The position numbers and the translations under genes were made by a program. DNA of 64,000 nt. It comes from Terriglobia bacterium. GTDB lineage: Bacteria; Acidobacteriota; Terriglobia; Bryobacterales; Bryobacteraceae. The notes under the pieces were generated by a model. The model did no database searches. It saw only the letters and a program-made list of their open reading frames with translations, and was not told where the DNA came from. This document shows, piece by piece, positions 18,628 through 47,261 of this stretch. The stretch spans positions 1 through 64,000 of the forward strand of contig JAIQFE010000001.1 of NCBI GenBank assembly GCA_020073445.1, in the 5' to 3' direction. Each line of letters opens with the position of its first letter. Position 1 is the stretch's first letter.

Positions 18628-20040
18628 ATGAGTTCTTCCGCCTCCCTGCGAACCCAACGAGCGAAAGTATACGACCTTGTGGTGGTCGACGATGATCCGG
18701 CGCAGATTCAACTGGTCACGGATATTCTGGACGGGCAGGCGTTTAAGATTCACGGCGCGAATGACCCCCAAGCTGGCTTGGATCTGGTGGCCAAAGTGCG
18801 GCCGGCAATCGTTCTTCTGGATTTGGTTCTGCCCGGTATCAGCGGAATGGAACTGCTGGAACGAATCCTCGAAATCGATCCGGCGATCGACGTCATCCTC
18901 GTCACCGGAAGCTATTCCACAGAGTCGGCTGTCGAAGCCATTCAGAAGGGTGCCTACGACTACCTGACCAAACCCCTGCCTCTGGAACGTTTTCATCAGA
19001 AGCTGGATAAATGGCTGGCCGATGCGCAAGCGAAGGAGCGAAGCCAGGCGCTCGAGAGCGAATTGTTGGGGGCATTTCAGCTGGAAGGAATCGTCGGGCG
19101 CGGCCCGGCCATGCTGGAGGTGTTTTCAAAGATCCGGCGCGTTGCTCCGCACTTCCACACGGCGCTGGTGACCGGCGAATCGGGAACAGGCAAAGAGTCT
19201 GCCGCCAAGGCTCTTCACCAACTGAGTCCGAATCCATCCGGCCCCTTCGTAGTGTGCAACTGCGCCGCTATTCCCGAGAATCTCTTTGAAAGCGAACTCT
19301 TCGGGCATGTCCGCGGAGCCTTCACGGGAGCTTTACAGGACAAGCGCGGCTACGTGGAAGCGGCCAGCGGCGGCACGCTGTTTCTCGACGAAATTACGGA
19401 GGTTCCGCTCACCGTCCAGGCCAAGTTATTGCGCCTTCTGCAGAACCGCGAAATCCAACGCGTGGGGAGTTCCCGGACCGCTCAGATCGACCTGCGCATT
19501 GTTGCAGCCACGAATCGGGATCTGCGGGGACTGGTTGCCGACGGGAAATTGCGTGACGACCTGTATTACAGGCTTTCGATGATCGAGGTAAGACTTCCTC
19601 GTCTGGCCGACCGCCGCGAGGACCTGCCATTGCTCGAACGCCACTTCCTGGATCGTTTCGCGGCGCGGTACAAGAAACCCACGCTGACGCTCTCGCGCCG
19701 GGCACAGGCGATGATTTCAAGCTATGCCTGGCCGGGAAACATCCGAGAGTTGGAGAACGTAATCGGGTACGCCTGCATGATGACGGAATCGGACACCATC
19801 GACCTTCGGGATCTGCCGGATTACTTGCATGCAAACGTGTCGCCTGGCCCCACCGAAGAAGAAGTCCTGGTGTCGATGCGGAATATGGAGCTTCGGCATT
19901 TGCATCGCGTGCTTGAACATGTGGGAGGCAATCGCGGCAAGGCTGCCGAGATCCTCGAAATCAGCCGGACGACGCTTTATCGGCTTTTGGAAGAAGAGAA
20001 ACGAAATGCTAAAAGCAGCCCGCCCAGTGTCCAGGTTTGA
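18628..20040 (+). CDS. NtrC-family sigma-54-dependent response regulator
   Basis: A 470-residue three-domain regulator. The receiver domain (about 15-130) has the acidic pocket VVVDDD and a phosphorylatable Asp65 in LLDLVLPG. The AAA+ domain has Walker A GESGTGKE and the sigma-54 contact loop GAFTGA intact, with SELFGH and RIVAATNRDL blocks. The C-terminus is a Fis-type helix-turn-helix (NRGKAAEILEISRTTLYRLLEE). It should activate sigma-54 promoters when phosphorylated. ATG 18628 follows a GGAG site. Just downstream are a sigma-54-like promoter and the yfiR/TonB/hybrid-kinase operon, so that operon is the natural target and its kinase the natural partner. This is inference. Confidence 0.93.
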   Translation: MSSSASLRTQRAKVYDLVVVDDDPAQIQLVTDILDGQAFKIHGANDPQAGLDLVAKVRPAIVLLDLVLPGISGMELLERILEIDPAIDVILVTGSYSTESAVEAIQKGAYDYLTKPLPLERFHQKLDKWLADAQAKERSQALESELLGAFQLEGIVGRGPAMLEVFSKIRRVAPHFHTALVTGESGTGKESAAKALHQLSPNPSGPFVVCNCAAIPENLFESELFGHVRGAFTGALQDKRGYVEAASGGTLFLDEITEVPLTVQAKLLRLLQNREIQRVGSSRTAQIDLRIVAATNRDLRGLVADGKLRDDLYYRLSMIEVRLPRLADRREDLPLLERHFLDRFAARYKKPTLTLSRRAQAMISSYAWPGNIRELENVIGYACMMTESDTIDLRDLPDYLHANVSPGPTEEEVLVSMRNMELRHLHRVLEHVGGNRGKAAEILEISRTTLYRLLEEEKRNAKSSPPSVQV

Positions 20041-35763: not shown

Positions 35764-37028
35764 TGCAGACAGAAAAAGAACGAGTAAATTCGTCGGCAGG
35801 CAGCCGCTTACTCAAGTGGATCTTCGTCCTGGTGCTGGTCGTATTGCTGGCCACCGTGGTCAACCGCGGCATCAACTCGCGTATCAAAGCCGCCTCGATT
35901 GTGAAACAGGAAACGGCGGATCTGGCGATCCCCACGGTTTCCGTGATCCATCCGCGGCTGGGCGAGTCGAAGCAGGAACTGGTGCTGCCGGGGAATTTAC
36001 AGGCATTTACCTTCGCCCCGATCTACGCGCGCACCAGCGGTTATCTGAAGAAATGGTATTTCGATATCGGCGCTCGGGTGAAGGCCGGGCAAGTGCTGGC
36101 AGAAATCGAGGCTCCGGAGCTGGACCAGCAACTGCGTCAGGCCAAAGCCAATCTACAGCAGGCTCAGGCGTCGCTGGAACAAGCGCTTGCCAATCGCCAG
36201 CAGAGCAAGGCCAACGAGGAATATGCCAAGCTAAGTGCCGACCGCTGGAAAGAGCTGGCTAAGCAAGGCGTGTTCTCCAGCCAGGATAACGACCAGAAGC
36301 AGTCACAATACCAGGCTTTGGTCGCTAACACCGAGGCGCTCGATAAAGCCATCGCCGCGGCGCGCAGCAACGTCGCCGCGCAGGAAGCGAACATCGGCCT
36401 GCTGGAACAATTGCAGGATTACCGGATCGTGAAGGCGCCCTTCGACGGAGTGATCACGGCACGCAATACCGATATCGGTGCACTGATCAACGCAGGAAAT
36501 GGCGGCACGGCCCAGGAATTGTTCCGCATGACGGCTTCGGAACGGCTGCGCCTTTTCGTGAACGTTCCCGAAGTATCCTCGCGCGCCGCCGTTCCGGGAG
36601 TGGCCGCCGACTTGGTTCTGTCCGAATACCCCGGCCGCAAGTTCCACGGCAAATTAGTGCGCACCGCGGATGCGATGGACGCCACAACCCGCACCCTGTT
36701 GACGGAAATCGACGTGGACAACTCGTCGGGCGAGCTTCGGCCCGGATCTTACGCCGAAGTCCACATGGCTCTCCCGGGTGGACGCGCGCTGATTGTTCCT
36801 GTTAGCTCGGTGTTGTTCCGCAGCGAGGGCCTGCGTGTGGGCGTGGTGCGCGCGGGAAAGAGCGGGGACAGCACGGTGGAGATGGTGCCCGTCACGGTCG
36901 GCAAGGATTTCGGCAATGAAGTCGAGATTACCTCCGGGATCACAGAAAGCGACCAGGTCATCGAGAGCCCGTCGGATTCTCTCACCTCCGGCACCGTCGT
37001 GCGCGTCATCGACGGCAACAAACCCTAA
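35760..37028 (+). CDS. RND efflux periplasmic adaptor (membrane fusion protein)
   Basis: A 422-residue adaptor partner of the RND pump upstream. One N-terminal membrane helix (LLKWIFVLVLVVLLATVV) is followed by a first lipoyl half (APIYARTSGYLKKWYFDIGARVKAGQVLAEIEAPELDQQLRQA). A coiled-coil hairpin rich in Ala/Gln (about 120-210) comes next, then the second lipoyl half (YRIVKAPFDGVITARNTDIGALI), a beta-barrel and a membrane-proximal domain. It lacks the lipobox of AcrA and is anchored by the helix. The start overlaps the pump stop codon; the end overlaps convergent otsB by four bases. Confidence 0.93.
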   Translation: MMQTEKERVNSSAGSRLLKWIFVLVLVVLLATVVNRGINSRIKAASIVKQETADLAIPTVSVIHPRLGESKQELVLPGNLQAFTFAPIYARTSGYLKKWYFDIGARVKAGQVLAEIEAPELDQQLRQAKANLQQAQASLEQALANRQQSKANEEYAKLSADRWKELAKQGVFSSQDNDQKQSQYQALVANTEALDKAIAAARSNVAAQEANIGLLEQLQDYRIVKAPFDGVITARNTDIGALINAGNGGTAQELFRMTASERLRLFVNVPEVSSRAAVPGVAADLVLSEYPGRKFHGKLVRTADAMDATTRTLLTEIDVDNSSGELRPGSYAEVHMALPGGRALIVPVSSVLFRSEGLRVGVVRAGKSGDSTVEMVPVTVGKDFGNEVEITSGITESDQVIESPSDSLTSGTVVRVIDGNKP

Positions 37029-37798
37029 CTCCCGACCTCGCGGTTCAGCCGCTCCAGGAACATCCGGACCTGCTTTACGCCGGCAAGCCGGAAGCGGGCA
37101 TGCGTGAAGCTTGGGCGACCGACGCGAATGGTGATCCCGTTGGTCAGGGCCGCGAAGGCAGGCTCGTCGACGGCATCATCGCCGACAAATACGGGCAATG
37201 CCGCACGACTGGCGATGGCCAACTCGTGGCGTACGGCGGTTCCTTTGTCCCCAAGCTCCGATGGCATGATCTCGAAACTGCGTTCTCCCGCGATCCCCCG
37301 AAAACGCCCGTTCAGCGGCTGCAGCGCACAGGTCATCTCTTGTCGAAGGTGCGTCACGTCGGCCACAGAGGCCTTGGCATGATGTATCGTCGCGACGACG
37401 CCTTTATCCTCTAACCAGGTCGTCGAGTTGCGTTGTACGATCTGCCGAGCGCGGGCCTTCAGGCTATCGAGAAGACGGCGGGTTTCCTCCTCAATTGAAA
37501 GCTCCTGCCGTCCTTCCCATCCATGCAAGCCCAGGTACTGTACGCCGCCGATGCGGCTCCGGTCACGCACGTCTGCTCTCCGGCGTCCGCTGATCACCCA
37601 GACGCGAATCCTCGATTTCCGCGCGAGGGTTGCCACGACGTTCCTCGTCGCGCCGCTCAAATGAACGTCTTCCGGCCGGGGGCAAAGCGGACTGAGCGTG
37701 CCGTCGAAATCCAGAAACAGCGCGATCGCGGAAGCGCGCCGGATTCGCTGCGCCACTTCGTTCCAGCAGGAAAACAAGTGGCGTGTGGCGACGGGCAT
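37025..37798 (-). CDS. otsB: Trehalose-6-phosphate phosphatase
   Basis: A 257-residue HAD phosphatase converting trehalose-6-phosphate to trehalose. The nucleophile motif LFLDFDGTLSP, VISGRRRADV (motif II Ser), GDKGTAVRHEL (motif III Lys) and VGDDAVDEPAF (motif IV) are present. The usual GDDxTDED is altered to GDDAVDEP, so one Thr and one Asp of the last motif are changed, while the metal-binding DD is kept. Its ATG follows the otsA stop directly (TGA-ATG), so translation is coupled and the pathway synthase-then-phosphatase is encoded in one unit. Confidence 0.9.
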   Translation of the reverse strand: MPVATRHLFSCWNEVAQRIRRASAIALFLDFDGTLSPLCPRPEDVHLSGATRNVVATLARKSRIRVWVISGRRRADVRDRSRIGGVQYLGLHGWEGRQELSIEEETRRLLDSLKARARQIVQRNSTTWLEDKGVVATIHHAKASVADVTHLRQEMTCALQPLNGRFRGIAGERSFEIMPSELGDKGTAVRHELAIASRAALPVFVGDDAVDEPAFAALTNGITIRVGRPSFTHARFRLAGVKQVRMFLERLNREVGS

Positions 37799-40084
37799 TC
37801 AGCTCTTCAACACCGTGTCCGCCGCATCCTGTTCGGCCGGAGTCGCCGAGGTGCGGATTTCGCACAGCTCCGCGATCAGATTGCCGGCCCAGCGGTAGAT
37901 GTTGTGCTCCTTGACCACCGCGCGCATCCGGCTCATTCGGAGGCGGGATTTTTCTGGAGGCATCTCCAAAGCGCGATGGATCGCCGTGGCGACCTCTTCC
38001 GTGTCATACGGATTCACGACCAGCGCATCGACCAGTTCATGAGACGCGCCGGTAAAGCGGCTCAGGATCAGGACGCCATGCCCGTCGCTCCGGGTCGCGA
38101 CGTACTCTTTGGCCACCAGGTTCATGCCATCGTGCAGCGACGTGACCATGCACAGATCGGCGGTGCGATAGTAGGGCAGAATCTCTTCACGAGTGTGGTG
38201 CCGAGTCAAGAGAATGATCGGCTTCCACTCGCTGGTCTGGAAGCGGGCATTGATCCGCTCGGCTTCCTGTTCCACTTCCAACATGAAATCGTGGTAGCGG
38301 CGGATCTCCGAACGGCTTGGTGCGCCGATTTGCACGAACGTGAACTCTCCGCGATACGCGGGATATTTTTCGAAAAATCGCTCCAGCCCGCGGAACCGTT
38401 CTAGAATCCCCTTGGTGTAATCGACGCGATCGACGCCGATGCCCATGAAGGCCGCGCGCACGCCGTGCTTGGCCAACAGCTCGGCTCGCTCAAGGTACTG
38501 CAGCTCGGAAGAAGCGCTGCTGCCGTTCTGCTCCGGGTCCATTGCGACGCTGATCGGGAACCTGCGAACCGCGGTCAGATGTCCATGGCGCATGACCGCA
38601 TTGCGGTCCCATTCGATGCGCGATTCCAGCACGCGATCCACGGTCTCGAGAAAGTTGTTGCAATGCGCCTGGATGTGAAAGCCCACCAGGTCGGCCCCCA
38701 GCAGACCTTCCAGCAGCTCGCGCTGCCACGGGCAGATGCCGAACGCTTCCGGATTCGGCCAGGGAATGTGCCAGAAGATCGCAACGCGCGCATCGGGCCG
38801 CGCTTTCTTGATGAGCTTGGGCATCAGGGCGAAATGGTAGTCCTGGACCAGCACCACCGGATCCTGCTCGCCACGAATCTCGCGCAAGACCGCGGCGGCG
38901 AACTTACGGTTGACTGCTTCGTATTGTTTCCAGTCCTCGGCGCGAAACGTGGGACGCGTGTGCGCGATGTGACACAGCGGCCACAGCCCTTCGTTGGCAA
39001 ACCCCAGATAGAAACCCTTGACCTCTTCCTCGGTGAGCCAGACTCGCCGCAAGGTGTATTGGGGATGGTCGGGTGGCACACGCAGGCATCCACGCTCGTC
39101 GCTGGTTTCGCGATCGGCGTCACCGGTAGCCTGTGCGATCCAGGTGCCGGCGCAAGCCCGCAGGATCGGCTCCTGCGCGGTGACCAGCCCGCTGGCCGGA
39201 ACGGACCATTCGATGCCCGAGGCGCGGTGAAAATGCTCGTACGGTTCCCGATTGGAGACCACGACCAGACGGCTGTCTCCCAGACGGCCTTGCACGAAAA
39301 TCCGCAGGCGGTCCTTGGTCCATTGCGATTCCGCGGACTCGCGCAAGCGAGCTTCTTCTTCCGCGGCGGCGCGCGCGGCCGTAAAGCTGGTCGCCAGATG
39401 CGAGACTTCGCGCGTGAAAGACTCGAATTCACCGCTTCCCGGCAGTTCCGGAGCGGGAGCTTCCGAAGATGTACGCAAGTCGCGCATCCACCGCGCCATT
39501 TGCTGCATCGGCTTCCCCAGGCCCCATCGCACGGTGAGCAGAGTGACGGCCGCGATCAATAGAGTCTGGAACGCTACGCTCGCCAGTGTCCGGCGCCAGG
39601 CATCTCCGACCCGCGTATCGATATACGCCGCATCGTGAAAAACTGCCAGAGTTCCGATAGTCGTCTCGCCGGCCCGCACCGGCGCAATAGCGGCGTGCAT
39701 CCGGACGCCGCCGAGCTGAATGAATTCTCCACGCGCCTCTTCCGCCCCGTCGACCTGGAGGATGGCCGGAGGTTTCCCGTTGAGGCGAGCTACCAGATCC
39801 GACGTGATCGCCACCGGCTGTCCGGCAGTGTCGGACACCATCATGCCCGCCAGACGCTCTCGCCCGGCGGAGCGGTCGACAAACGCCTGGAGACTCTTAT
39901 ACGAATGCGCAGCCAACAGCGGTTCCACCGCCTTAGCTTGGCTTTCCGCCAGATCCAGCGCCTGGCGCTGGAGATCCCGCTCCAAGCCGCGCCGTTCGGA
40001 TCGCACCTGATAATAAGCGAATCCCATGGCCACCGCGGCAACGCCGGCGATGAGCAGCAGATTTAACCTGAGAGCAAGGCGCAT
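37799..40084 (-). CDS. otsA: Membrane sensor-HAMP fused to trehalose-6-phosphate synthase
   Basis: A 761-residue fusion. Residues 1-260 look like the input half of a sensor kinase: TM1 (6-25), a periplasmic stretch (26-165), TM2 (166-187), then a HAMP-like linker and coiled coil (187-260). Residues from about 265 are a complete GT20 synthase: VVSNREPYEHF, VLVQDYHFALMP, FWHIPWPNPEAF, GLLGADLVGFH, GVDRVDYTKGI (phosphate-binding Arg/Lys) and SLHDGMNLVAKEYV with the UDP-sugar acidic site. It should make trehalose-6-phosphate from UDP-glucose and glucose-6-phosphate at the inner face of the membrane. Ordinary OtsA is cytosolic and about 480 residues. No domain stop or frameshift lies between halves. 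It is translated just before otsB. Confidence 0.93.
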   Translation of the reverse strand: MRLALRLNLLLIAGVAAVAMGFAYYQVRSERRGLERDLQRQALDLAESQAKAVEPLLAAHSYKSLQAFVDRSAGRERLAGMMVSDTAGQPVAITSDLVARLNGKPPAILQVDGAEEARGEFIQLGGVRMHAAIAPVRAGETTIGTLAVFHDAAYIDTRVGDAWRRTLASVAFQTLLIAAVTLLTVRWGLGKPMQQMARWMRDLRTSSEAPAPELPGSGEFESFTREVSHLATSFTAARAAAEEEARLRESAESQWTKDRLRIFVQGRLGDSRLVVVSNREPYEHFHRASGIEWSVPASGLVTAQEPILRACAGTWIAQATGDADRETSDERGCLRVPPDHPQYTLRRVWLTEEEVKGFYLGFANEGLWPLCHIAHTRPTFRAEDWKQYEAVNRKFAAAVLREIRGEQDPVVLVQDYHFALMPKLIKKARPDARVAIFWHIPWPNPEAFGICPWQRELLEGLLGADLVGFHIQAHCNNFLETVDRVLESRIEWDRNAVMRHGHLTAVRRFPISVAMDPEQNGSSASSELQYLERAELLAKHGVRAAFMGIGVDRVDYTKGILERFRGLERFFEKYPAYRGEFTFVQIGAPSRSEIRRYHDFMLEVEQEAERINARFQTSEWKPIILLTRHHTREEILPYYRTADLCMVTSLHDGMNLVAKEYVATRSDGHGVLILSRFTGASHELVDALVVNPYDTEEVATAIHRALEMPPEKSRLRMSRMRAVVKEHNIYRWAGNLIAELCEIRTSATPAEQDAADTVLKS

Positions 40085-40177: not shown

Positions 40178-41194
40178 TCACGGTGTCATCCGGGCCGCCA
40201 AGGAAACGTCGTCCGGGTGAGCGAAAAAGCGCCAGACTTCCTCGGGAGCATCGACGTGGTCGCTGGTCGGGCCCAGGATTCTCGGCTGGCGAACCCGAGA
40301 CTGCGAAATCGTGTGTCCGCCTCCGTGAATCGCAAGCAACTCGATATTCGCTCTGCCACTGGACCAGGTGCGGCGCTCCGCCCAAGTCGCCGGATTGCCT
40401 TCGCGATCCGGAAGCCGTTCGATGCGGGGCTGGCTCGCGTTACCGGCCAATTCGGCGAAATAACGCGCGCTCTGCTCGGCCGACTGGACGTGGCCCAGGC
40501 TCGTCGTCCAGAGACTGTTCACGCTTCCTCCGCTGAAGGGATTGATCTGGTCCGCGGTTCCGTTCAGGATCGCGATTGAGACGGGCGTTCGCGAAGGAAC
40601 ACAGTCCGAATCCCCATCGGTTGGCAGATTCGCGGAAATCGCTGCCGCTGCCGTAAATGTTTCCGGCGCCTCGACTGCGAGCCGGTAGACCATGAGCCCG
40701 CCCGTCGAGTATCCAAGAACGTACACCGGACCGCCGGCACCATAACGGGTTCGCAAGTTTGCGACTACTTCTTTCACGAAACTCACGTCGTCGATTCCCT
40801 GGCGCCGTGCGGGGTTATGCGAAGCAACCCGGCAGTCATTCCAGCTTCCAGAAAACGAATCGGGATACGCCACTACGAAGCCGTACTTGTCAGCGAGGAC
40901 ATCGAACTCGTATCCGGTGAACGCACGCAGGTTCTGGCCGCTACTATTCGCTCCGTGCAGCGCGACCACCAGCGGCGCGTTCCCGGCCACCCGTGCGGGC
41001 ACGTAAAACGCGAACGAGCGCTCACGCCCATCGACTTTCAAAGACGCCGTTTGAAGAGTTCCCGACAAGGCCGGCGGCTGAGGTGCCGAAAACTCGAAAT
41101 AGTAGCGCCACCACATCCCGGCCATCGCCGGCAAGAACACGCAAACCGTCAATACCGGAATGAGCAGGTCGCGGAACGCAGAGTTGTTCTTCAC
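40178..41194 (-). CDS. Membrane-anchored or exported PHB-depolymerase/feruloyl-esterase-like hydrolase
   Basis: A 338-residue alpha/beta hydrolase with one N-terminal hydrophobic helix (LLIPVLTVCVFLPAMAGMWW) acting as anchor or signal. The LpqC/PHB-depolymerase pattern is clear: APLVVALHGANSSGQN (oxyanion), FVVAYPDSFSGSWNDCR, nucleophile Ser in GYSTGG, Asp in NGTADQINPF and His in GGGHT. The nucleophile elbow reads G-Y-S-T-G. It overlaps the STAS gene start-to-stop (ATGA-type overlap at 41191-41194) and so belongs to the same sigma-54-controlled unit. The ester substrate is not readable. Confidence 0.85.
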   Translation of the reverse strand: MKNNSAFRDLLIPVLTVCVFLPAMAGMWWRYYFEFSAPQPPALSGTLQTASLKVDGRERSFAFYVPARVAGNAPLVVALHGANSSGQNLRAFTGYEFDVLADKYGFVVAYPDSFSGSWNDCRVASHNPARRQGIDDVSFVKEVVANLRTRYGAGGPVYVLGYSTGGLMVYRLAVEAPETFTAAAAISANLPTDGDSDCVPSRTPVSIAILNGTADQINPFSGGSVNSLWTTSLGHVQSAEQSARYFAELAGNASQPRIERLPDREGNPATWAERRTWSSGRANIELLAIHGGGHTISQSRVRQPRILGPTSDHVDAPEEVWRFFAHPDDVSLAARMTP

Positions 41195-41541
41195 ACCGCA
41201 CCTCCGATGGAGTCATTCCATGGTTTGAGGAAGCAAGGATTCTGCCCGGTCGACGGCTCAAGCACTTGCTCGCGCAGCCCTGCGGAATCCGCCATGTTCT
41301 TGATTCCGGTGGGACAGTTGAGCAGCAGCACATGTTTCGGAAGCGTCCGGACCAGCAGTTCGGCCGGCTTCCGGTCCACACGCGAGACGTCACAGAAATC
41401 GAGCACGATGAAATGCCCGGTTTCGCCCTCCAGTTCCTTCAAGAAGTCGGACCAGCCGTTCACATCGAAGTCTGTGACTTGGCCGGCAAGCTTGAGGATG
41501 GCAACGCAAGACGTCTGGAAGATTCTGCTGATTCTATACAT
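41191..41541 (-). CDS. STAS-domain protein
   Basis: A 116-residue protein. It has the STAS/anti-sigma antagonist layout: a beta strand VAILKLAGQVT, a helix NGWSDFLKELEG, the central strand HFIVLDFCDVSRVD followed by a helix RKPAELLVRTLP, and HVLLLNCP. The site where SpoIIAA-like proteins carry the phosphorylated Ser/Thr is occupied by Arg/Asp residues (SRVDRKP), so classical kinase switching is doubtful. It may act as a partner-binding module. It is the first gene of a unit with the exported esterase, downstream of a sigma-54 promoter whose predicted start site is only about four bases before the ATG. Confidence 0.7.
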   Translation of the reverse strand: MYRISRIFQTSCVAILKLAGQVTDFDVNGWSDFLKELEGETGHFIVLDFCDVSRVDRKPAELLVRTLPKHVLLLNCPTGIKNMADSAGLREQVLEPSTGQNPCFLKPWNDSIGGAV

Positions 41542-41553
41542 GGCAATGGTGTA

Positions 41554-41571
41554 GGAGCACCCGGCATGCCA
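41554..41571 (-). promoter_or_regulatory. Sigma-54 (-24/-12) promoter of the STAS-esterase unit
   Basis: On the reverse strand, TGGCATG-CCGG-GTGCTCC reads as TGGCA at -24 and TGCT at -12 with GG-N10-GC spacing. Seven of eight core sigma-54 positions match. The predicted start site is near 41545, four bases before the ATG at 41541, with no Shine-Dalgarno sequence between. The twin promoter at 45202 has the same TGGCAT-N6-TGCT form. Confidence 0.7.
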
Positions 41572-41623: not shown

Positions 41624-41637
41624 GCTGAGATATCAGC
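41624..41637. promoter_or_regulatory. Proximal activator site (UAS) for the STAS-esterase promoter
   Basis: GCTGAGATATCAGC, a 14-bp near-palindrome (six of seven base pairs symmetric; the flanking T/A extend it to 16), lies at about -79 to -92 of the predicted start. The same motif with one base changed occurs at 45112-45125 ahead of the other target gene. Confidence 0.65.
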
Positions 41638-41642
41638 AGGGT

Positions 41643-41656
41643 GCGGAAATCTGAAC
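41643..41656. promoter_or_regulatory. Distal weaker copy of the activator site
   Basis: GCGGAAATCTGAAC matches the GCTGARATATCAGC motif at 10 of 14 positions and starts exactly 19 bp beyond the proximal copy, on the side away from the promoter. The same 19-bp offset is seen at the 45.1-kb locus. Confidence 0.4.
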
Positions 41657-41660
41657 AATA

Positions 41661-44600
41661 CTATTCGGCTTGTGCTCGCGCGTTCTGGTTCTTGGGGAGG
41701 TCGATTCCTAACTTCCTCATTCGCGACCACAAAGTGGATCGATTGAGCCCCAGGATCTGGGCAGCGCCGTTGGGTCCAGCCAAGGTCCCACCGGTTTGCT
41801 CCAGGGCGCGCAGGATGAGGCGACGTTCGGCTTCCTCGAGCGTCGGAAGACCTTCGGCGGGGCCTGCCGCTCCCGGCGCGCCGGGCTTCACACGACTCAT
41901 GGAGAGATGCTTCAGCTCGAGGATATCGGACTGGCACAGAATCACCGCACGTTCCAAAAGGTTCGCGAGTTCACGAACGTTGCCGGGCCAGTCATATTGA
42001 TGAAGCTGCTCATACACGGCGCGATTGATGCCCTGTATCCGTTTGCCCATACGCTGCGAGAAGCGGCGCACGAAATGGCCCGCCAATAAAGGAACGTCGT
42101 CCTTGCGTTCGCGCAGCGGCGGTACTTCAATGGGGAAGACATTCAAGCGATAGAAGAGATCGGCCCGGAACGCACCTCGCCGGACTTCCTGTTCCAGATC
42201 GCGATTCGTGGCCGCGATGACGCGCACATCGACTTTATGCGTTTGCGAACCACCGACCCGTTCGAATTCCTGTTCCTGCAATACGCGCAGGAGCTTCGAC
42301 TGGGTTTCGAGCGGCAGCTCACCCACTTCATCCAGAAAAATCGTGCCGCGGTGGGCCAGCTCAAAACGGCCCTTTTTCTGCCCAACCGCTCCGGTGAAGG
42401 CCCCTTTTTCGTGGCCGAACAGCTCGCTTTCCACCAGACTGGCGGGCAGCGCGCCACAGTTCACTTTGACCATGACGCTTTGCCGCCGCTGGCTTCGAAC
42501 GTGAAGCGCGCGGGCGATCAGCTCTTTCCCGGTACCCGTTTCTCCGAGCAGCAAAACGGTAGAGTCGGTCTGCGCCACCATCTCGATGCTGGTGAATACC
42601 TTCTGAATCGCGGGCGAAGCTCCGACGATCTCTTCAAAATTGAGCTCGCTCTGTAACTCCTCCTGAAGGTAGACATTCTCACGCTGCAACTGGTCCAGCA
42701 TTTCCTCCGATTGCTTCAGCTGGCCGACGTCGCGGAGGATGAGGGTAAATAACCGGCCGGTGGAAACATCGGTCCGGGAAACCGTGGCTTCGATCGGGAA
42801 CGGCTCCCCGTTTTTGCGGATCGCTCGCATCCCTTCGGGAATCCAGCCCTGCGCGGCATCCGAACCGGCCGAAGCGATATATCCAGTCAGGAACTGCTCC
42901 AGTGGCTCGGAGAGAAACCTATCGATTCTCTTGCCGATGACCTCCGGCGAGTCGCACTGGAACATGGTCTTCGCCGCTTCATTAAAGATCACGATTCTTC
43001 TTTCGGAATCGACGACGAGGATCGCGTCCATCGCCGAGCGGAAAATCCCGGCCAGCCGTTCCTCGGTTTCCTTGCGCGCGCGCTCGGCACGCTTCCGCTC
43101 GGTGATGTCCAGCAGGAACGTCTGGCTGAACAGGAACTTGCCGCTCGCATCTTTCTTCACGACCGAAGAAATCTGCAGATCCACCCGTTCGCCGTTCTTC
43201 TTGGCGGCCTGGACTTCCGCCTCGGTGATAAACCCGTCGCGTTCCAGCTTTGGCATCAGTTCATCGCGAACGTAAGTTTGATATTCGGGCGGCGCAAAAT
43301 TCACTACCGGCCGGCCAATCACTTCGCTGCGCTCGTATCCGAGCGTCTGCAGCCAGAAGTCATTCACGTCCAGGATGCAGCCGTTGCTGTCAATCGAATG
43401 CATCATGATGGGCGTGCTGTTATAGAGCGTCCGAACCCGATCCTCGCTTTCCCGAAGCCGGGAATTTGTTTCCGACAGCTCTTGAGTCCGCTCGGTAACG
43501 CGCCGCTCCAGGTCGGCCGCGTGATGCGCTACCTGCTGATTCAAGTGGGCATGCCGGATGGCCACCGCGAGACTATCGGCGACGTCCTGCGCGATTTCCA
43601 CATGCTCGGCCGTGAAAGCCGCGACCTCATTCGATCCAAGATTCAGGGTACCTATCAATTCGCCATTCGCCAGCAGCGGGACCGCGACAATCGACCGGAT
43701 TCCGTCTTCTTCGAGCGCGATGCGCGCAGGCGCCATCGGAATATGGGCGAGGTTGGGCACAACGTACGGCCTGCCCTGGCGAAGATCATCCGGATCGCCG
43801 AAAAGATTCAGAGGCACCCATGACCCAACCCGTAGCGTTCCGACCCCAAGAGGCGTTCCCTCCGAGGTCAGGACGCCGACCAAACGCGCGGCGGCGGCTC
43901 CCGGTTCAATCACGGATACACTGGCGCGCTGGCATGGGACCAGCTCACGAAAACGCGCCAGTACGGCATCCGCGATTTCATGGACAGAACGGGCCGACAG
44001 AATCGCGCGATCGGTCTGCCGCAACAATTTCAGACGCTGGCTGTAACGCCGGAGAGCGTGCTCGGCCTGCTTGCGAGCCGTGATGTCGCGCTGGACGCTG
44101 AAGCTGCCGGTAAAGCGCCCTTCCTGATCGTAGATGCAGATGTAGTCGCCATCCAGCCACATCGGAGTTCCGTCGAAACGGCGCTCCTCGCTCTCGCCAT
44201 GCCGATGTCCCGCATCCAGCATTTCCCGGCAAAACTGTCGCCCCTGCGCCGGATCGTGGGCGAATACGTCCTTGGTTCGCCGACCGAGAAATTGCTCGGC
44301 GGTCGCCCCGTAGAGGCGAAGCATGGCATCGTTGACCTTGGTGGTCCGCTGATGCTCAAAGATGTAATCCAGGACCTTTTCTTTATCGACGCTGTCATCC
44401 CAACGAACCGGCTCGTCCAACATCATGAAACAGAAACCGTCGAGCGACTGCGAAAAGAACAGCTCCAATTGGTCGAAGGATTTCCGGAGTTCGCGCTCTA
44501 CCTGGCGGCGGCGATCCGTCTCGAACACCAGCGCAGTCAGATCGGCCAGCGAAGCCGCGAAATTCTGTTCTTCAAAACGCCAAGTCCGCAGCGAGCCGGT

Positions 44601-45038
44601 GTGCTCATTGCACAGGACTCCAGCTACGCGCCCTTCCCGGCGAATGGGCACGTCCAGCATGGAGTAGATATTCAGAACATCCAGATACCCAACCGCGAAC
44701 TCGGCGGTGCAAGGGTGAGTACGCGCGTCCTCCGCTGGAATGGTCCGGCTCTCTTCGAGCGCCTGGAAGTATAAAGGATACTTCCCGACCTCCAGAATCG
44801 CTCCGCTTTCGTGGACATTGCGCTCGCGATCGTACAGATGCACGCAGCGAAGCTCGGTGTGGTCGTCGTTGAACAGCCAGAAACTGACGCGAGCCACCTC
44901 GAGCGCATCGGCAGCGAGAGCCGAAATCCGGGTCAGCGCTTCACTCAAGTCAGCCGAACCGGCGCGAGAGATCTCGACCAGGGCCGCCTGGAATTGCAGC
45001 GTTTGAAAATCGGTTCCCAAGGTAGAGGCTTCTGACAT
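41661..45038 (-). CDS. GAF/PAS multi-sensor sigma-54-dependent transcriptional activator
   Basis: A 1125-residue activator with a long sensory half. Order by eye: GAF (about 10-165), PAS (about 185-320), GAF (about 345-500), coiled coil, PAS (about 520-640), PAS (about 655-775), then the AAA+ core with GETGTGKE, intact GAFTGA and RVIAATNRDLEQEV, and a Fis-type HTH at the end (GGTLAGPNGAAQILGLNRSTLWSRMRKL). There is no receiver domain, so activity should depend on ligand or redox input to the GAF/PAS modules, as in NorR/FhlA-type activators. No membrane segment is seen. A TACAAT -10 box lies at 45066-45071 on its strand. The two flanking units carry matching enhancer sites and sigma-54 promoters. 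Confidence 0.93.
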   Translation of the reverse strand: MSEASTLGTDFQTLQFQAALVEISRAGSADLSEALTRISALAADALEVARVSFWLFNDDHTELRCVHLYDRERNVHESGAILEVGKYPLYFQALEESRTIPAEDARTHPCTAEFAVGYLDVLNIYSMLDVPIRREGRVAGVLCNEHTGSLRTWRFEEQNFAASLADLTALVFETDRRRQVERELRKSFDQLELFFSQSLDGFCFMMLDEPVRWDDSVDKEKVLDYIFEHQRTTKVNDAMLRLYGATAEQFLGRRTKDVFAHDPAQGRQFCREMLDAGHRHGESEERRFDGTPMWLDGDYICIYDQEGRFTGSFSVQRDITARKQAEHALRRYSQRLKLLRQTDRAILSARSVHEIADAVLARFRELVPCQRASVSVIEPGAAAARLVGVLTSEGTPLGVGTLRVGSWVPLNLFGDPDDLRQGRPYVVPNLAHIPMAPARIALEEDGIRSIVAVPLLANGELIGTLNLGSNEVAAFTAEHVEIAQDVADSLAVAIRHAHLNQQVAHHAADLERRVTERTQELSETNSRLRESEDRVRTLYNSTPIMMHSIDSNGCILDVNDFWLQTLGYERSEVIGRPVVNFAPPEYQTYVRDELMPKLERDGFITEAEVQAAKKNGERVDLQISSVVKKDASGKFLFSQTFLLDITERKRAERARKETEERLAGIFRSAMDAILVVDSERRIVIFNEAAKTMFQCDSPEVIGKRIDRFLSEPLEQFLTGYIASAGSDAAQGWIPEGMRAIRKNGEPFPIEATVSRTDVSTGRLFTLILRDVGQLKQSEEMLDQLQRENVYLQEELQSELNFEEIVGASPAIQKVFTSIEMVAQTDSTVLLLGETGTGKELIARALHVRSQRRQSVMVKVNCGALPASLVESELFGHEKGAFTGAVGQKKGRFELAHRGTIFLDEVGELPLETQSKLLRVLQEQEFERVGGSQTHKVDVRVIAATNRDLEQEVRRGAFRADLFYRLNVFPIEVPPLRERKDDVPLLAGHFVRRFSQRMGKRIQGINRAVYEQLHQYDWPGNVRELANLLERAVILCQSDILELKHLSMSRVKPGAPGAAGPAEGLPTLEEAERRLILRALEQTGGTLAGPNGAAQILGLNRSTLWSRMRKLGIDLPKNQNARAQAE

Positions 45039-45092
45039 GTCTTCTTGGACCCGCCAACAACGGACATTGTAACGCCCCGGGGGCCGGCTCTT

Positions 45093-45106
45093 GTTGAGAT
45101 TTCGGC
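45093..45106. promoter_or_regulatory. Distal weaker activator site upstream of the ankyrin-toroid gene
   Basis: GTTGAGATTTCGGC matches GCTGARATATCAGC at 11 of 14 positions and starts 19 bp before the strong copy at 45112, away from the promoter. Confidence 0.45.
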
Positions 45107-45111
45107 GTAAC

Positions 45112-45125
45112 GCTGAAATATCAGC
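45112..45125. promoter_or_regulatory. Proximal activator site (UAS) for the ankyrin-toroid promoter
   Basis: GCTGAAATATCAGC, differing from the 41624 site by one base. It lies about -103 to -116 from the predicted sigma-54 start site and also about 75-85 bases upstream of the activator gene, so it could serve autoregulation. Confidence 0.65.
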
Positions 45126-45201: not shown

Positions 45202-45218
45202 TGGCATCCGTCATGCTT
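45202..45218 (+). promoter_or_regulatory. Sigma-54 (-24/-12) promoter of the ankyrin-toroid unit
   Basis: TGGCATC-CGTC-ATGCTTT has TGGCA at -24 and TGCTT at -12 with GG-N10-GC spacing. The predicted start is near 45228, two bases before the ATG at 45230, again with no room for a Shine-Dalgarno sequence. Confidence 0.72.
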
Positions 45219-45229
45219 TTAGAGCAACC

Positions 45230-46642
45230 ATGAAAAGCGCATTGATTCTGGCCATCGAGTTCGCCGCCGTGCTGGGGGCACAGGTACCGGACTTCACTCC
45301 GCCGACGCCCTTGATCGCCGCAGTGATGCACAACAACACGGAAGAAGCGAAACGGCTGCTGGCTGCTGGCGCGGATCCGAATGAAGCCCGGCTGGTCGGG
45401 TTCCCGGCGGTGTTCTTTCCGGTGGCGTTCCGGAATGCCGAGCTTTTTCACGCGATGGTGGCGAAAGGGGCGGATGTCCAGGCGCGTGATGCCTCCGGGT
45501 CGACGGCTCTGATGTGGGCGGCGTTCAACGAGGCTGGCGACCCGGCGTTGGCGGAGGAACTCCTGCAACTGGGGGTGGATCCCAACGCCAAAAATCAGGT
45601 GGGGGAAACCGCATTGATCTGGGCTTCGCGGCGGGGAAACACGAAGGTAGTGGCAGCGCTCGAACGGGCGGGCGCGTCGAACCCGGATGGCGTTAGGGAC
45701 TCGGTGCAGCGGGCGATTGCACTGTTGCAGAAGACCAGCCCGCAGTTCATCCGGGTTTCGGGTTGCGTCTCCTGCCACAACCAGTCGCTGCCGCAGATGG
45801 CTGCGGCGGCCGCGCGCGCCCATGGCATTGTGGTGGATGAGAAATCTTCACGGCTCGCGACCGAAAGCACCATCGCGGTGGTCAAGCCACTCATGGAAGA
45901 CGCTGAAAAGTCGGCCGACCGGGTTCCCGATCCTTCGGTCTCGGTAAGTTATCTCCTGCTCGGATTAGCTGCGGACAACTATCCGGCGGATGCCTACACC
46001 AAGGCGATGGCTCGCCTGGTGGCGCGCTGGCAGATGGAAGATGGCGGCTTCCGTGTTCTTCCCTTGAGGCCACCGATCGAATCGAGCCACTTCACGGCAA
46101 CCGCATTGAGCCTGCGCGCGTTGCAGCTTTACGGCGAGCATCCGCAGGACCAGGTGGCGCGCGCCCGGGCTTGGCTGCTCAGCGCGAAGCCCGAGACGAC
46201 GGAAGATCGCGCGATGCAGGTGCTCGGCTTGGCCTGGTCGAATGCCGAACCGAAGGAGATCCGCGAACGGGCGCAGGCTCTGCTGGCGGAACAACGCGAG
46301 GATGGTGGCTGGTCCCAATTGCCGGCGCTGGGAACGGATGCCTATGCGACCGGCCAGGCGCTGGTAGCGCTACAGCGCGGAGCGAAGCTGCCGGCATCCG
46401 ATCCGGCGATCCAGCGCGGAATCGCGTTCCTGCTGCGGACGCAGTTCGCCGATGGCTCCTGGCTGGTCCGGACCAGGTCATTCCCGTTCCAGCCGTACAA
46501 AGAGAGCGGATTCCCGTATGGCAAAGACCAGTGGATTTCCGCGGCGGGGACAAGCTGGGCCGCGATGGCGCTCTCGCTGGCGCTTCCCGTGCAGCAGGAA
46601 GAACCGCGAGTTCTATACGCGGTGCGATCGAGCGGAGAGTAG
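45230..46642 (+). CDS. Exported ankyrin repeat / CxxCH / terpenoid-cyclase-like toroid protein
   Basis: A 470-residue protein with a signal peptide (MKSALILAIEFAAVLGA-Q). Residues 25-150 are about four ankyrin repeats (TPLIAAVMHNNTEEAKRLL, STALMWAAFNEAG, ETALIWASRRGNTKVV). A single haem-c-type CVSCH lies at 179-183. From about 190 the chain is an alpha/alpha toroid with squalene-cyclase-like repeats (ARWQMEDGGFRV, EQREDGGWSQLP, TQFADGSWLVRTRSFPFQPYKE). Such a toroid alone is not proof of terpene chemistry; the DxDD acid of true cyclases is absent. It could be a periplasmic redox-linked scaffold. It is preceded by a sigma-54 promoter and a perfect IHF site. The degenerate sigma-like gene follows 82 bases later. 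Confidence 0.82.
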   Translation: MKSALILAIEFAAVLGAQVPDFTPPTPLIAAVMHNNTEEAKRLLAAGADPNEARLVGFPAVFFPVAFRNAELFHAMVAKGADVQARDASGSTALMWAAFNEAGDPALAEELLQLGVDPNAKNQVGETALIWASRRGNTKVVAALERAGASNPDGVRDSVQRAIALLQKTSPQFIRVSGCVSCHNQSLPQMAAAAARAHGIVVDEKSSRLATESTIAVVKPLMEDAEKSADRVPDPSVSVSYLLLGLAADNYPADAYTKAMARLVARWQMEDGGFRVLPLRPPIESSHFTATALSLRALQLYGEHPQDQVARARAWLLSAKPETTEDRAMQVLGLAWSNAEPKEIRERAQALLAEQREDGGWSQLPALGTDAYATGQALVALQRGAKLPASDPAIQRGIAFLLRTQFADGSWLVRTRSFPFQPYKESGFPYGKDQWISAAGTSWAAMALSLALPVQQEEPRVLYAVRSSGE

Positions 46643-46724: not shown

Positions 46725-47261
46725 ATGGACCGAATCTTTAAAGACCACATGTCGGAATTGTATTGGCTGGCCTTCCTCCTGACGGGGGACCGGGAGCGGA
46801 GCGTTCAGGCTTACACCGGCGCTCTCAACAGCGAAGCTCCCGCGCCAGGGCTCCAGAAGTTCATGCTTACCTGGGCCCGAAGGCTGGTGATTGTCGCGGC
46901 GCTTAGCACTATCCGCCGCCAACTGCGCGAATCCGAGCTGCGAACCCGCCCGGCGACCAAGCGCGAACTGGACGGGTTGGCCCGGGCGGCTTCGGTCGAT
47001 CGGGCGGGCTTCACCAAGCAAGAGCTCGAAGACGCTCTGCTGGCGATGGACGTGTTCGTAAGGTGCGCCGTGATTCTGACCGTTTTCGAGGGGCTGCGGG
47101 TGGAGGAAGCGGCTGGGCTCTTGGGCACCGACGAGAACACGGTGAAGTCCGCCCAGGCTCGAGGGGCGACCGAAATGATCTGGAGGCTGGCGGGCGGGGT
47201 CCGGCCGGAGTCGCCGCGTTTTTTTAGCGTAGGCCAGAAGGCGATGGCTGCTTGCGGATGA
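46725..47261 (+). CDS. Sigma-70/ECF-like protein with degenerate region 2
   Basis: A 178-residue protein. The C-terminal half is a recognisable sigma region 4 (ALLAMDVFVRCAVILTVFEGLRVEEAAGLLGTDENTVKSAQARG), an HTH that in ECF factors binds the -35 box. The N-terminal half resembles region 2.1 (LYWLAFLLTGDRERSVQ), but the conserved DLVQ/F-L-R core that binds RNA polymerase and melts DNA is missing. It could be a weak sigma factor, an anti-activator or a paralogue used for protein contact. AGAGGAAG precedes the ATG. It is probably cotranscribed with the ankyrin-toroid gene. Confidence 0.65.
   Translation: MDRIFKDHMSELYWLAFLLTGDRERSVQAYTGALNSEAPAPGLQKFMLTWARRLVIVAALSTIRRQLRESELRTRPATKRELDGLARAASVDRAGFTKQELEDALLAMDVFVRCAVILTVFEGLRVEEAAGLLGTDENTVKSAQARGATEMIWRLAGGVRPESPRFFSVGQKAMAACG

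Follow-up and report, generated by a model that had tools for sequence, protein, structure and literature searches.

Why should the gene of a sigma-54 activator be flanked on both sides by nearly the same short palindrome? This question is raised by a 64,000-nucleotide stretch of DNA (the window; contig JAIQFE010000001.1, positions 1 to 64,000) from the 6.58 Mb genome of a Terriglobia bacterium of the Acidobacteriota, named G000 here, G-numbers designating the genomes compared and L-numbers the loci fetched from them. A preliminary description of this DNA had pointed to two 14-bp palindromes, and we found both with the letters and at the places it gave, GCTGAGATATCAGC at 41624-41637 on the left side and GCTGAAATATCAGC at 45112-45125 on the right side, the predicted strong operators. 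A weaker copy starts exactly 19 bp from each of them, again as described, on the far side from a -24/-12-like promoter element (GCGGAAATCTGAAC at 41643-41656, 10/14 positions; GTTGAGATTTCGGC at 45093-45106, 11/14). The spacing itself stands, but its description as about two helical turns is too generous, since 18-19 bp make 1.7-1.8 turns at 10.5 bp per turn. Between the two palindromes lies, on the minus strand (41661-45038), the gene of a one-component bacterial enhancer-binding protein of 1125 amino acids with matches to GAF, PAS, AAA+ (Sigma54_activat, PF00158, E 2.7e-73) and HTH_8 (E 6.7e-9) domains. The GAFTGA loop and the Walker motifs, in their usual definitions, can be read from its sequence, and the HTH_8 match corresponds to a Fis-type helix-turn-helix (41709-41843, minus strand) with the recognition helix NRSTLWSRMRKLGI. 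We consider it highly probable that the palindromes serve this activator as upstream activating sequences (enhancers) and would drive both of its neighbours. This is the interpretation of the preliminary description, and our sequence analysis supports it; binding and activation are what we infer.

The sites are rare and found together. Indeed, GCTGARATATCAGC occurs at two places in the whole genome, both beside the activator gene, and its reversed control at none, so that a random spread of the palindrome over the genome, one of the two sequence-level outcomes that would have spoken against the preliminary description, was not observed. When GCTGANATNTCAGC was counted with any base allowed at positions 6 and 9, all six exact places in G000, G014, G019 and G029, the genomes with an unbroken orthologue of the regulator, were found to flank the regulator gene (control, 0). 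The weak copies taken alone mean little, since a search allowing up to three mismatches gave 13 matches in the window against a mean of 7.9 in shuffled sequences, 5 of 100 shuffles reaching 13. It is the pairing that stands out in the window: its two flanks score 22/24 and 21/24, values that no resampling of a first-order Markov model attained in 2000 trials for each, and at 8 of the 9 testable regulator flanks from five genomes the best pair was likewise matched in none of 2000. Moreover, with the strong site on the stop-codon side held fixed, an offset of +19 ranks first of 94 when three orthologues are summed (23; runner-up 16), and the weak left copy is for this reason probably a decayed real copy. 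At the same place, where the second copy of the window is degenerate, G029 carries two good copies.

We then compared the locus with its orthologues. At E <= 1e-140 the regulator is present in 4 of 237 genomes of the family. Full orthologues are found in G014 (90% identity) and G019 (86%). The orthologue of G029 is further removed (64% over the C-terminal part), and that of G008 is fragmented, with pieces on two contigs (78-79% in the AAA+ and helix-turn-helix pieces). The closest named relative is contig JAIQFI010000025.1 (L052), from a Terriglobia metagenome-assembled genome. Before the start codon, three species agree at 26 of 28 operator columns as against 45 of 147 other intergenic columns (p = 5e-10); behind the stop codon, they agree at 11 of 14 columns of the strong site against 24 of 75 others (p = 0.0015). 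The intergenic flanks behave in a near-neutral way, since fourfold-degenerate codon positions agree in all three species at 96 of 281. On the start-codon side, the copies are spaced by 19 bp in G000 and G019 and by 18 bp in G014; the spacing is 19 bp on the stop-codon side of G029 and 18 bp in G008. A lack of conservation at orthologous loci, the other of these two outcomes, was not seen either, the sites and their 18-19 bp pairing having been kept while the flanks drifted.

Do sigma-54 promoters stand where such enhancers could serve them? The consensus of these promoters is TGGCAC-N5-TTGCW, and an upstream activating sequence is expected to precede the -24/-12 element by a few tens to about 200 bp. 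Our scan required GG and GC at the sigma-54 spacing and scored seven further consensus positions. In the window, a predicted element matching 6 of 7 positions separates the operators from the neighbouring gene on each side: TGGCATGCCGGGTGCT (41556-41571, minus strand) at 52 bp from the strong left site and TGGCATCCGTCATGCT (45202-45217, plus strand) at 76 bp from the strong right site, with transcription starts predicted 4 and 2 nucleotides before the ATG, respectively. The -12 letters of the two elements are ATGC and GTGC; over both strands the window has 38 matches at 5/7 or better. Elements in this position are also found on both sides in G014, at 77 bp (right, 5/7) and 53 bp (left, 6/7) from the strong sites, and in G019, at 88 bp (right, 4/7) and 63 bp (left, 6/7), a shift of 10-12 bp on both sides, or about one helical turn. 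G029 has one at 85 bp from the nearer operator copy (4/7). In these four genomes the operator copy nearer to the promoter is thus placed 52-88 bp from it, and a sigma-54 gene (PF04552) was found in all five genomes checked. At six of the seven target promoters (both in G000 and G014, the left one in G019, and that of G029) the start is predicted 2-5 nucleotides before the ATG, which would give leaderless mRNAs; the right promoter of G019 is the exception, with a predicted leader of 34 nucleotides containing GAAAGGA. Leaderless genes average 13.3% in three Acidobacteria genomes, according to PMC3160421.

The direction of these elements also bears on the idea that the sites repress or autoregulate the activator gene and that the neighbours are bystanders, which we regard as unlikely. 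About 55 bp lie between the start of the right pair and the regulator start codon, and in G008 a degenerate pair precedes the regulator at a place without a divergent gene. On the other hand, the left site comes after the stop codon of the regulator, and in the window, which is where this direction was scanned, the -24/-12 elements scoring at least 5/7 within 200 bp face the neighbours and none the regulator. Autoregulation could nevertheless coexist with activation of the neighbours.

One would also wonder whether the sites belong to the regulator or to the genes that it would control. Among the 30 best loci for the right target, the operator was present just in the two that also have the regulator (own genome and G019) and missing at all 28 homologue loci (39-56% identical) from genomes without the regulator. 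Across the family, the pair pattern is confined to 4 of 237 genomes, and these are the four in which the regulator is present; the informative part of this count is the absence from the 233 others, since the pattern was written from those four loci. These data support the view that the motif accompanies the regulator rather than the target gene. They also make it very unlikely that the sites belong to another DNA-binding protein controlling both neighbours of the activator. The genome does hold 23 HTH_8 matches, that of the regulator included, and binding by the regulator is itself a prediction, but the loci (2-3 kb) of the other 22 gave at best 10/12 for a single site and 15/24 for a pair.

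Single GCTGARATNTCAGC sites are more widespread, with 45 places in 40 of the 237 family genomes, 5 at regulator loci and 40 elsewhere, and these 40 are what could make one think of chance palindromes. However, none of the 38 other places examined has a related activator in the 1.6-7 kb searched, and with the conservation, resampling and offset tests in addition, chance has a next to negligible probability. Longer stretches for two of the 38 places revealed one activator fragment, 7 kb off, in G085. Six of the 38 have a nearby -24/-12-like 5/7 match, two a partner of at least 10/14 at 18-19 bp, and one, again in G085, both features. There (L072; L180:7793), a perfect GCTGAAATTTCAGC lies about 100 bp before a STAS-like gene, with the -24/-12 match and efflux-like genes on the opposite side, and the distant activator fragment has a different recognition helix. 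In G067 (L068, L179), another site and its weak partner were taken as chance, with no related activator in 11 kb. In the window's own genome, the search for further regulon members went as far as one-mismatch sites, and the ten found (L003-L012), which lie within reading frames of 278-733 codons, were not accepted; it should be said that spurious frames, of 116 and 292 codons, run across the two strong sites of the window as well. A -24/-12-like 5/7 match within 200 bp was found at L005 and at none of the other nine. Finally, that the sites are transcription terminators or RNA hairpins, as inverted repeats close to gene ends could be, is hardly credible, for there is no terminator-like site in either region, the right pair lies upstream of both genes and a 14-bp palindrome has scant space for a loop.

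Is this arrangement restricted to one regulator? We examined 57 activator loci. A strict tandem scan retained 3 loci (controls 0-1) and missed the window's own pair; a looser one gave scores of at least 22 in 8 loci (controls 0-1) and at least 20 in 12 (controls 1-6). Of the 8 loci, L049 repeats L025, and L036 and L043 are off-layout. In parallel, a profile hidden Markov model made from five STAS-like proteins matched, besides the orthologues, L042 (a seed), L036, L048, L037, L041, L034 and, weakly, L039, and missed the L027 protein, which inspection by eye revealed afterwards. Between activator and STAS-like gene, L037 carries GCCGATATTTCGGC/GCCGATATACCGGC and L041 carries GCCGGTATTTCGGC/GCCGCTATTTCGGC, both pairs 18 bp apart and accompanied by a -24/-12-like match (5/7 and 4/7, respectively), and L027 has a similar 18-bp pair followed by the STAS-like gene. 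The tandem palindrome of these relatives has the general form GCCGNNATNNCGGC, 18 bp apart, and stands behind the activator stop codon and before the STAS-like gene. The window has the same layout, with its 21/24 pair (second copy degenerate) behind the stop codon, then the -24/-12 element and a STAS-like gene. At L048 a STAS-like gene also stands behind the activator, with a single imperfect palindrome and no -24/-12-like match, and L034 has neither the palindrome nor this gene order. The gap at L042 (G009:C521) contains a 22-bp inverted repeat with one imperfect pair, CATTTCGGGAATTTCCGAAATG, and a -24/-12-like element; its half-sites resemble the Escherichia coli FhlA site.

A pattern for GCCG pairs, written from L037, L041 and L027, was run over 399 genomes of the class and matched in 18 of them, as against 5 with the reversed control. 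After the matches had been seen, we separated those found on two strands from those found on one. The nine two-strand matches have no counterpart in any genome with the reversed control; eight of them immediately precede a STAS-like frame (E 3e-15 or better) and five come directly after an activator, whereas none of the nine one-strand matches has either neighbour. Since L190 is the L041 design locus and its protein is in the Markov model, the independent counts are 7 of 8 for the STAS-like gene and 4 of 8 for the activator. L192 (G242) is the two-strand match with neither. All of nine longer STAS-like loci (the eight matches and L027) have a -24/-12-like element of at least 4/7 within 200 bp (background 0.25 each, p = 4e-6), and 5 of 9 have one of at least 5/7 (background 0.064, p = 1e-4); a fair count for the former is 8 of 9, because at L207, which is the L027 locus, the element runs into the ATG of the STAS-like gene and cannot be credited. 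In three of these loci, from three genomes (L203:7397-9055, L206:6466-8166 and L207:9099-10745), the STAS-like part and an outer-membrane efflux (OEP/TolC) domain share one frame, which would mean either an unusual topology or a second, coupled start within it. An MFS gene follows further on in all three; the stretch in between was examined in L206 and L207, and both have an HlyD gene there.

Several observations weigh against our reading of the palindromes as enhancers of this activator. Concerning the promoters, none of the elements of the window, G014, G019 and G029 has TTGC at -12, those of G019 (right) and G029 score 4/7, a level found about 0.14 times per 100 bp of strand, the promoter columns are identical at 9 of 16 on each side, below the operators, and the -24/-12-like element of G008 would start transcription inside the ATG. 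Concerning the operators, the left second copy of the window is degenerate and its column identity alone is not significant (7/14, p = 0.16), and G029 lacks a pair on the start-codon side, where 1938 of 2000 resamplings did equally well. In G008 the pair is degenerate (18/24), an offset of -48 scores higher for one copy, the sole exact site sits in a coding region and there is no space for a pair behind the stop codon. Tandems are not general either: 45 of the 57 activator loci have none at 20 or more, a level at which the controls also show 1-6. Furthermore, three STAS-like matches (L193, L196 and L197; longer stretches L203, L204 and L205) have no activator in 16, 16 and 6.5 kb, respectively, so that the activator is not always adjacent.

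The operator letters could be compared with the recognition helix of the adjoining regulators. Those of G000, G014, G019, G029 and G008, which have GCTGANATNTCAGC or its degenerate form, share the helix [LI]NRSTLWSRM[RK]KLGI, and among the loci aligned NRSTLWSRM is restricted to regulators with a GCTGANATNTCAGC-type operator. The regulators with GCCG pairs (L027, L037, L184, L185, L188, L190 and L198) have KRTTLQSRM, KRSTLQSRM, KRTTLQSKM or RRTTLQSRI. Helix and letters agree in all 12 regulators compared, and this agreement could reflect a single event since the first five may be one branch. A broader hypothesis, which we put forward tentatively as possible rather than probable, would join these observations. 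There would be a cassette, distributed across the class, in which a one-component activator, usually with a tandem operator past its stop codon, switches on a STAS-like protein, and in some genomes the gene of this protein would head an operon for efflux, with an outer-membrane efflux protein, HlyD and MFS. The letters at operator position 3/12 (C:G or T:A) would change with the helix (K/R-R-[TS]-TLQ versus NRSTLW) and so form a readable DNA-recognition code, the STAS-like product would act back as a partner on the GAF/PAS activator, and mRNAs would be leaderless in the branch of the window.

As to the locus itself, we propose that a dimer of the C-terminal Fis-type helix-turn-helix would bind GCTGANATNTCAGC and that the 18-19 bp tandem would let two dimers load side by side, thereby seeding the AAA+ ring in response to some signal to the GAF and PAS domains. 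Two adjacent dimers are the usual and most likely reading of such pairs, the left pair being a strong site with a degenerate copy. The ring could then contact sigma-54 polymerase at the -24/-12 promoters 52 and 76 bp away and open it. Leftwards, the output would be a STAS-like/esterase operon and, rightwards, an ankyrin-repeat gene, that is to say a local regulon of two promoters. The locus belongs to a wider set of the class made of activator, tandem palindrome behind the stop codon, -24/-12-like element and STAS-like gene.

The left target (41191-41541, minus strand) encodes 116 amino acids. It misses the gathering cut-off of the Pfam STAS family (14.5 bits versus 22.6), and its AlphaFold model, built on a two-sequence alignment (mean pLDDT, the predicted local distance difference test, 76), has RsbV (E 2e-4) and SpoIIAA, both anti-sigma antagonists, as top Foldseek matches. 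We call it STAS-like only, because the Pfam score lies under the cut-off though the fold agrees. A PHB (polyhydroxybutyrate) depolymerase-like esterase gene (40178-41194, minus strand) overlaps it by 4 bases, and the two are probably in one operon. Further on come a trehalose-6-phosphate synthase-like protein with a long N-terminal extension (37025-40084, minus strand) and then a trehalose-phosphatase-like protein. The right target (45230-46642, plus strand; 470 amino acids) has ankyrin repeats and squalene/hopene-cyclase-like repeats and, by eye, a signal-peptide-like N-terminus and a CVSCH sequence. A sigma-70 region-4-like gene (46725-47261, plus strand) starts 82 bases downstream and is possibly in the same operon. 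In G014 (L102:13025-13174) the right target has shrunk to 49 codons, apparently through a deletion within the gene, and yet its operator pair and promoter persist, perhaps since they still serve the next gene. In G029 (L104:6824-8455) the pair behind the activator faces not a STAS-like gene but one of 543 codons, TPR (tetratricopeptide repeat)-like by eye. The second HTH_8 match of the window (19876-19986, plus strand) is inside a 495-codon open frame, probably another sigma-54 activator.

A parallel can be drawn with FhlA/HyfR-like activators, which are also GAF-containing one-component activators; the helix-turn-helix of the regulator and the GAAAT letters of the half-site presumably resemble those of FhlA. 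On the other hand, a Clostridiales paper describes the FhlA sites as TGT/ACA repeats with a 10-12 bp spacer (PMC6615313), and the window palindrome is unlike these sites, which also depart from the FhlA site to which the resemblance refers. Tandem palindromes are very frequent at sigma-54 activator sites and are thought to aid oligomerisation, and NorR dimers occupy three adjacent sites, as stated in PMC6296734; compared with the NorR sites, there are here two copies, 18-19 bp apart and with other letters. In Desulfovibrio vulgaris, activators often adjoin the sigma-54 promoters that they control, mostly one to four operons (PMC4641369). As in these local regulons, our activator stands beside its predicted promoters with a regulator-specific motif upstream of each, and one D. 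vulgaris activator also has a sigma-54 promoter downstream of its own gene. The phylum, motif and targets differ, and an 18-19 bp pair recurring across paralogues is absent from the passages of that paper that we consulted. The left target shares a predicted fold with RsbV and SpoIIAA; unlike for these, no kinase or anti-sigma partner was recognised among the neighbours scanned, and the Pfam score is below cut-off. In the open literature searched, we found no paper on sigma-54 upstream activating sequences or enhancer-binding proteins in Acidobacteria, no word starting with acidobacter stands in the main text of PMC12316311, which treats sigma-54 across phyla, and a search with the operator letters gave unrelated papers only.

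The repeated link to STAS-like proteins, of which three carry a fused efflux domain, points to a common function, and no description of a STAS domain tied to sigma-54 activators or efflux was found among the matches listed. For an activator from a group without such literature that we could find, the analysis provides a concrete predicted binding motif, two promoters and a set of targets. Some paralogous activators have the same paired geometry, with operator letters that vary together with the helix, which offers a testable specificity code, and this recurrence may open a route for assigning operators to other activators.

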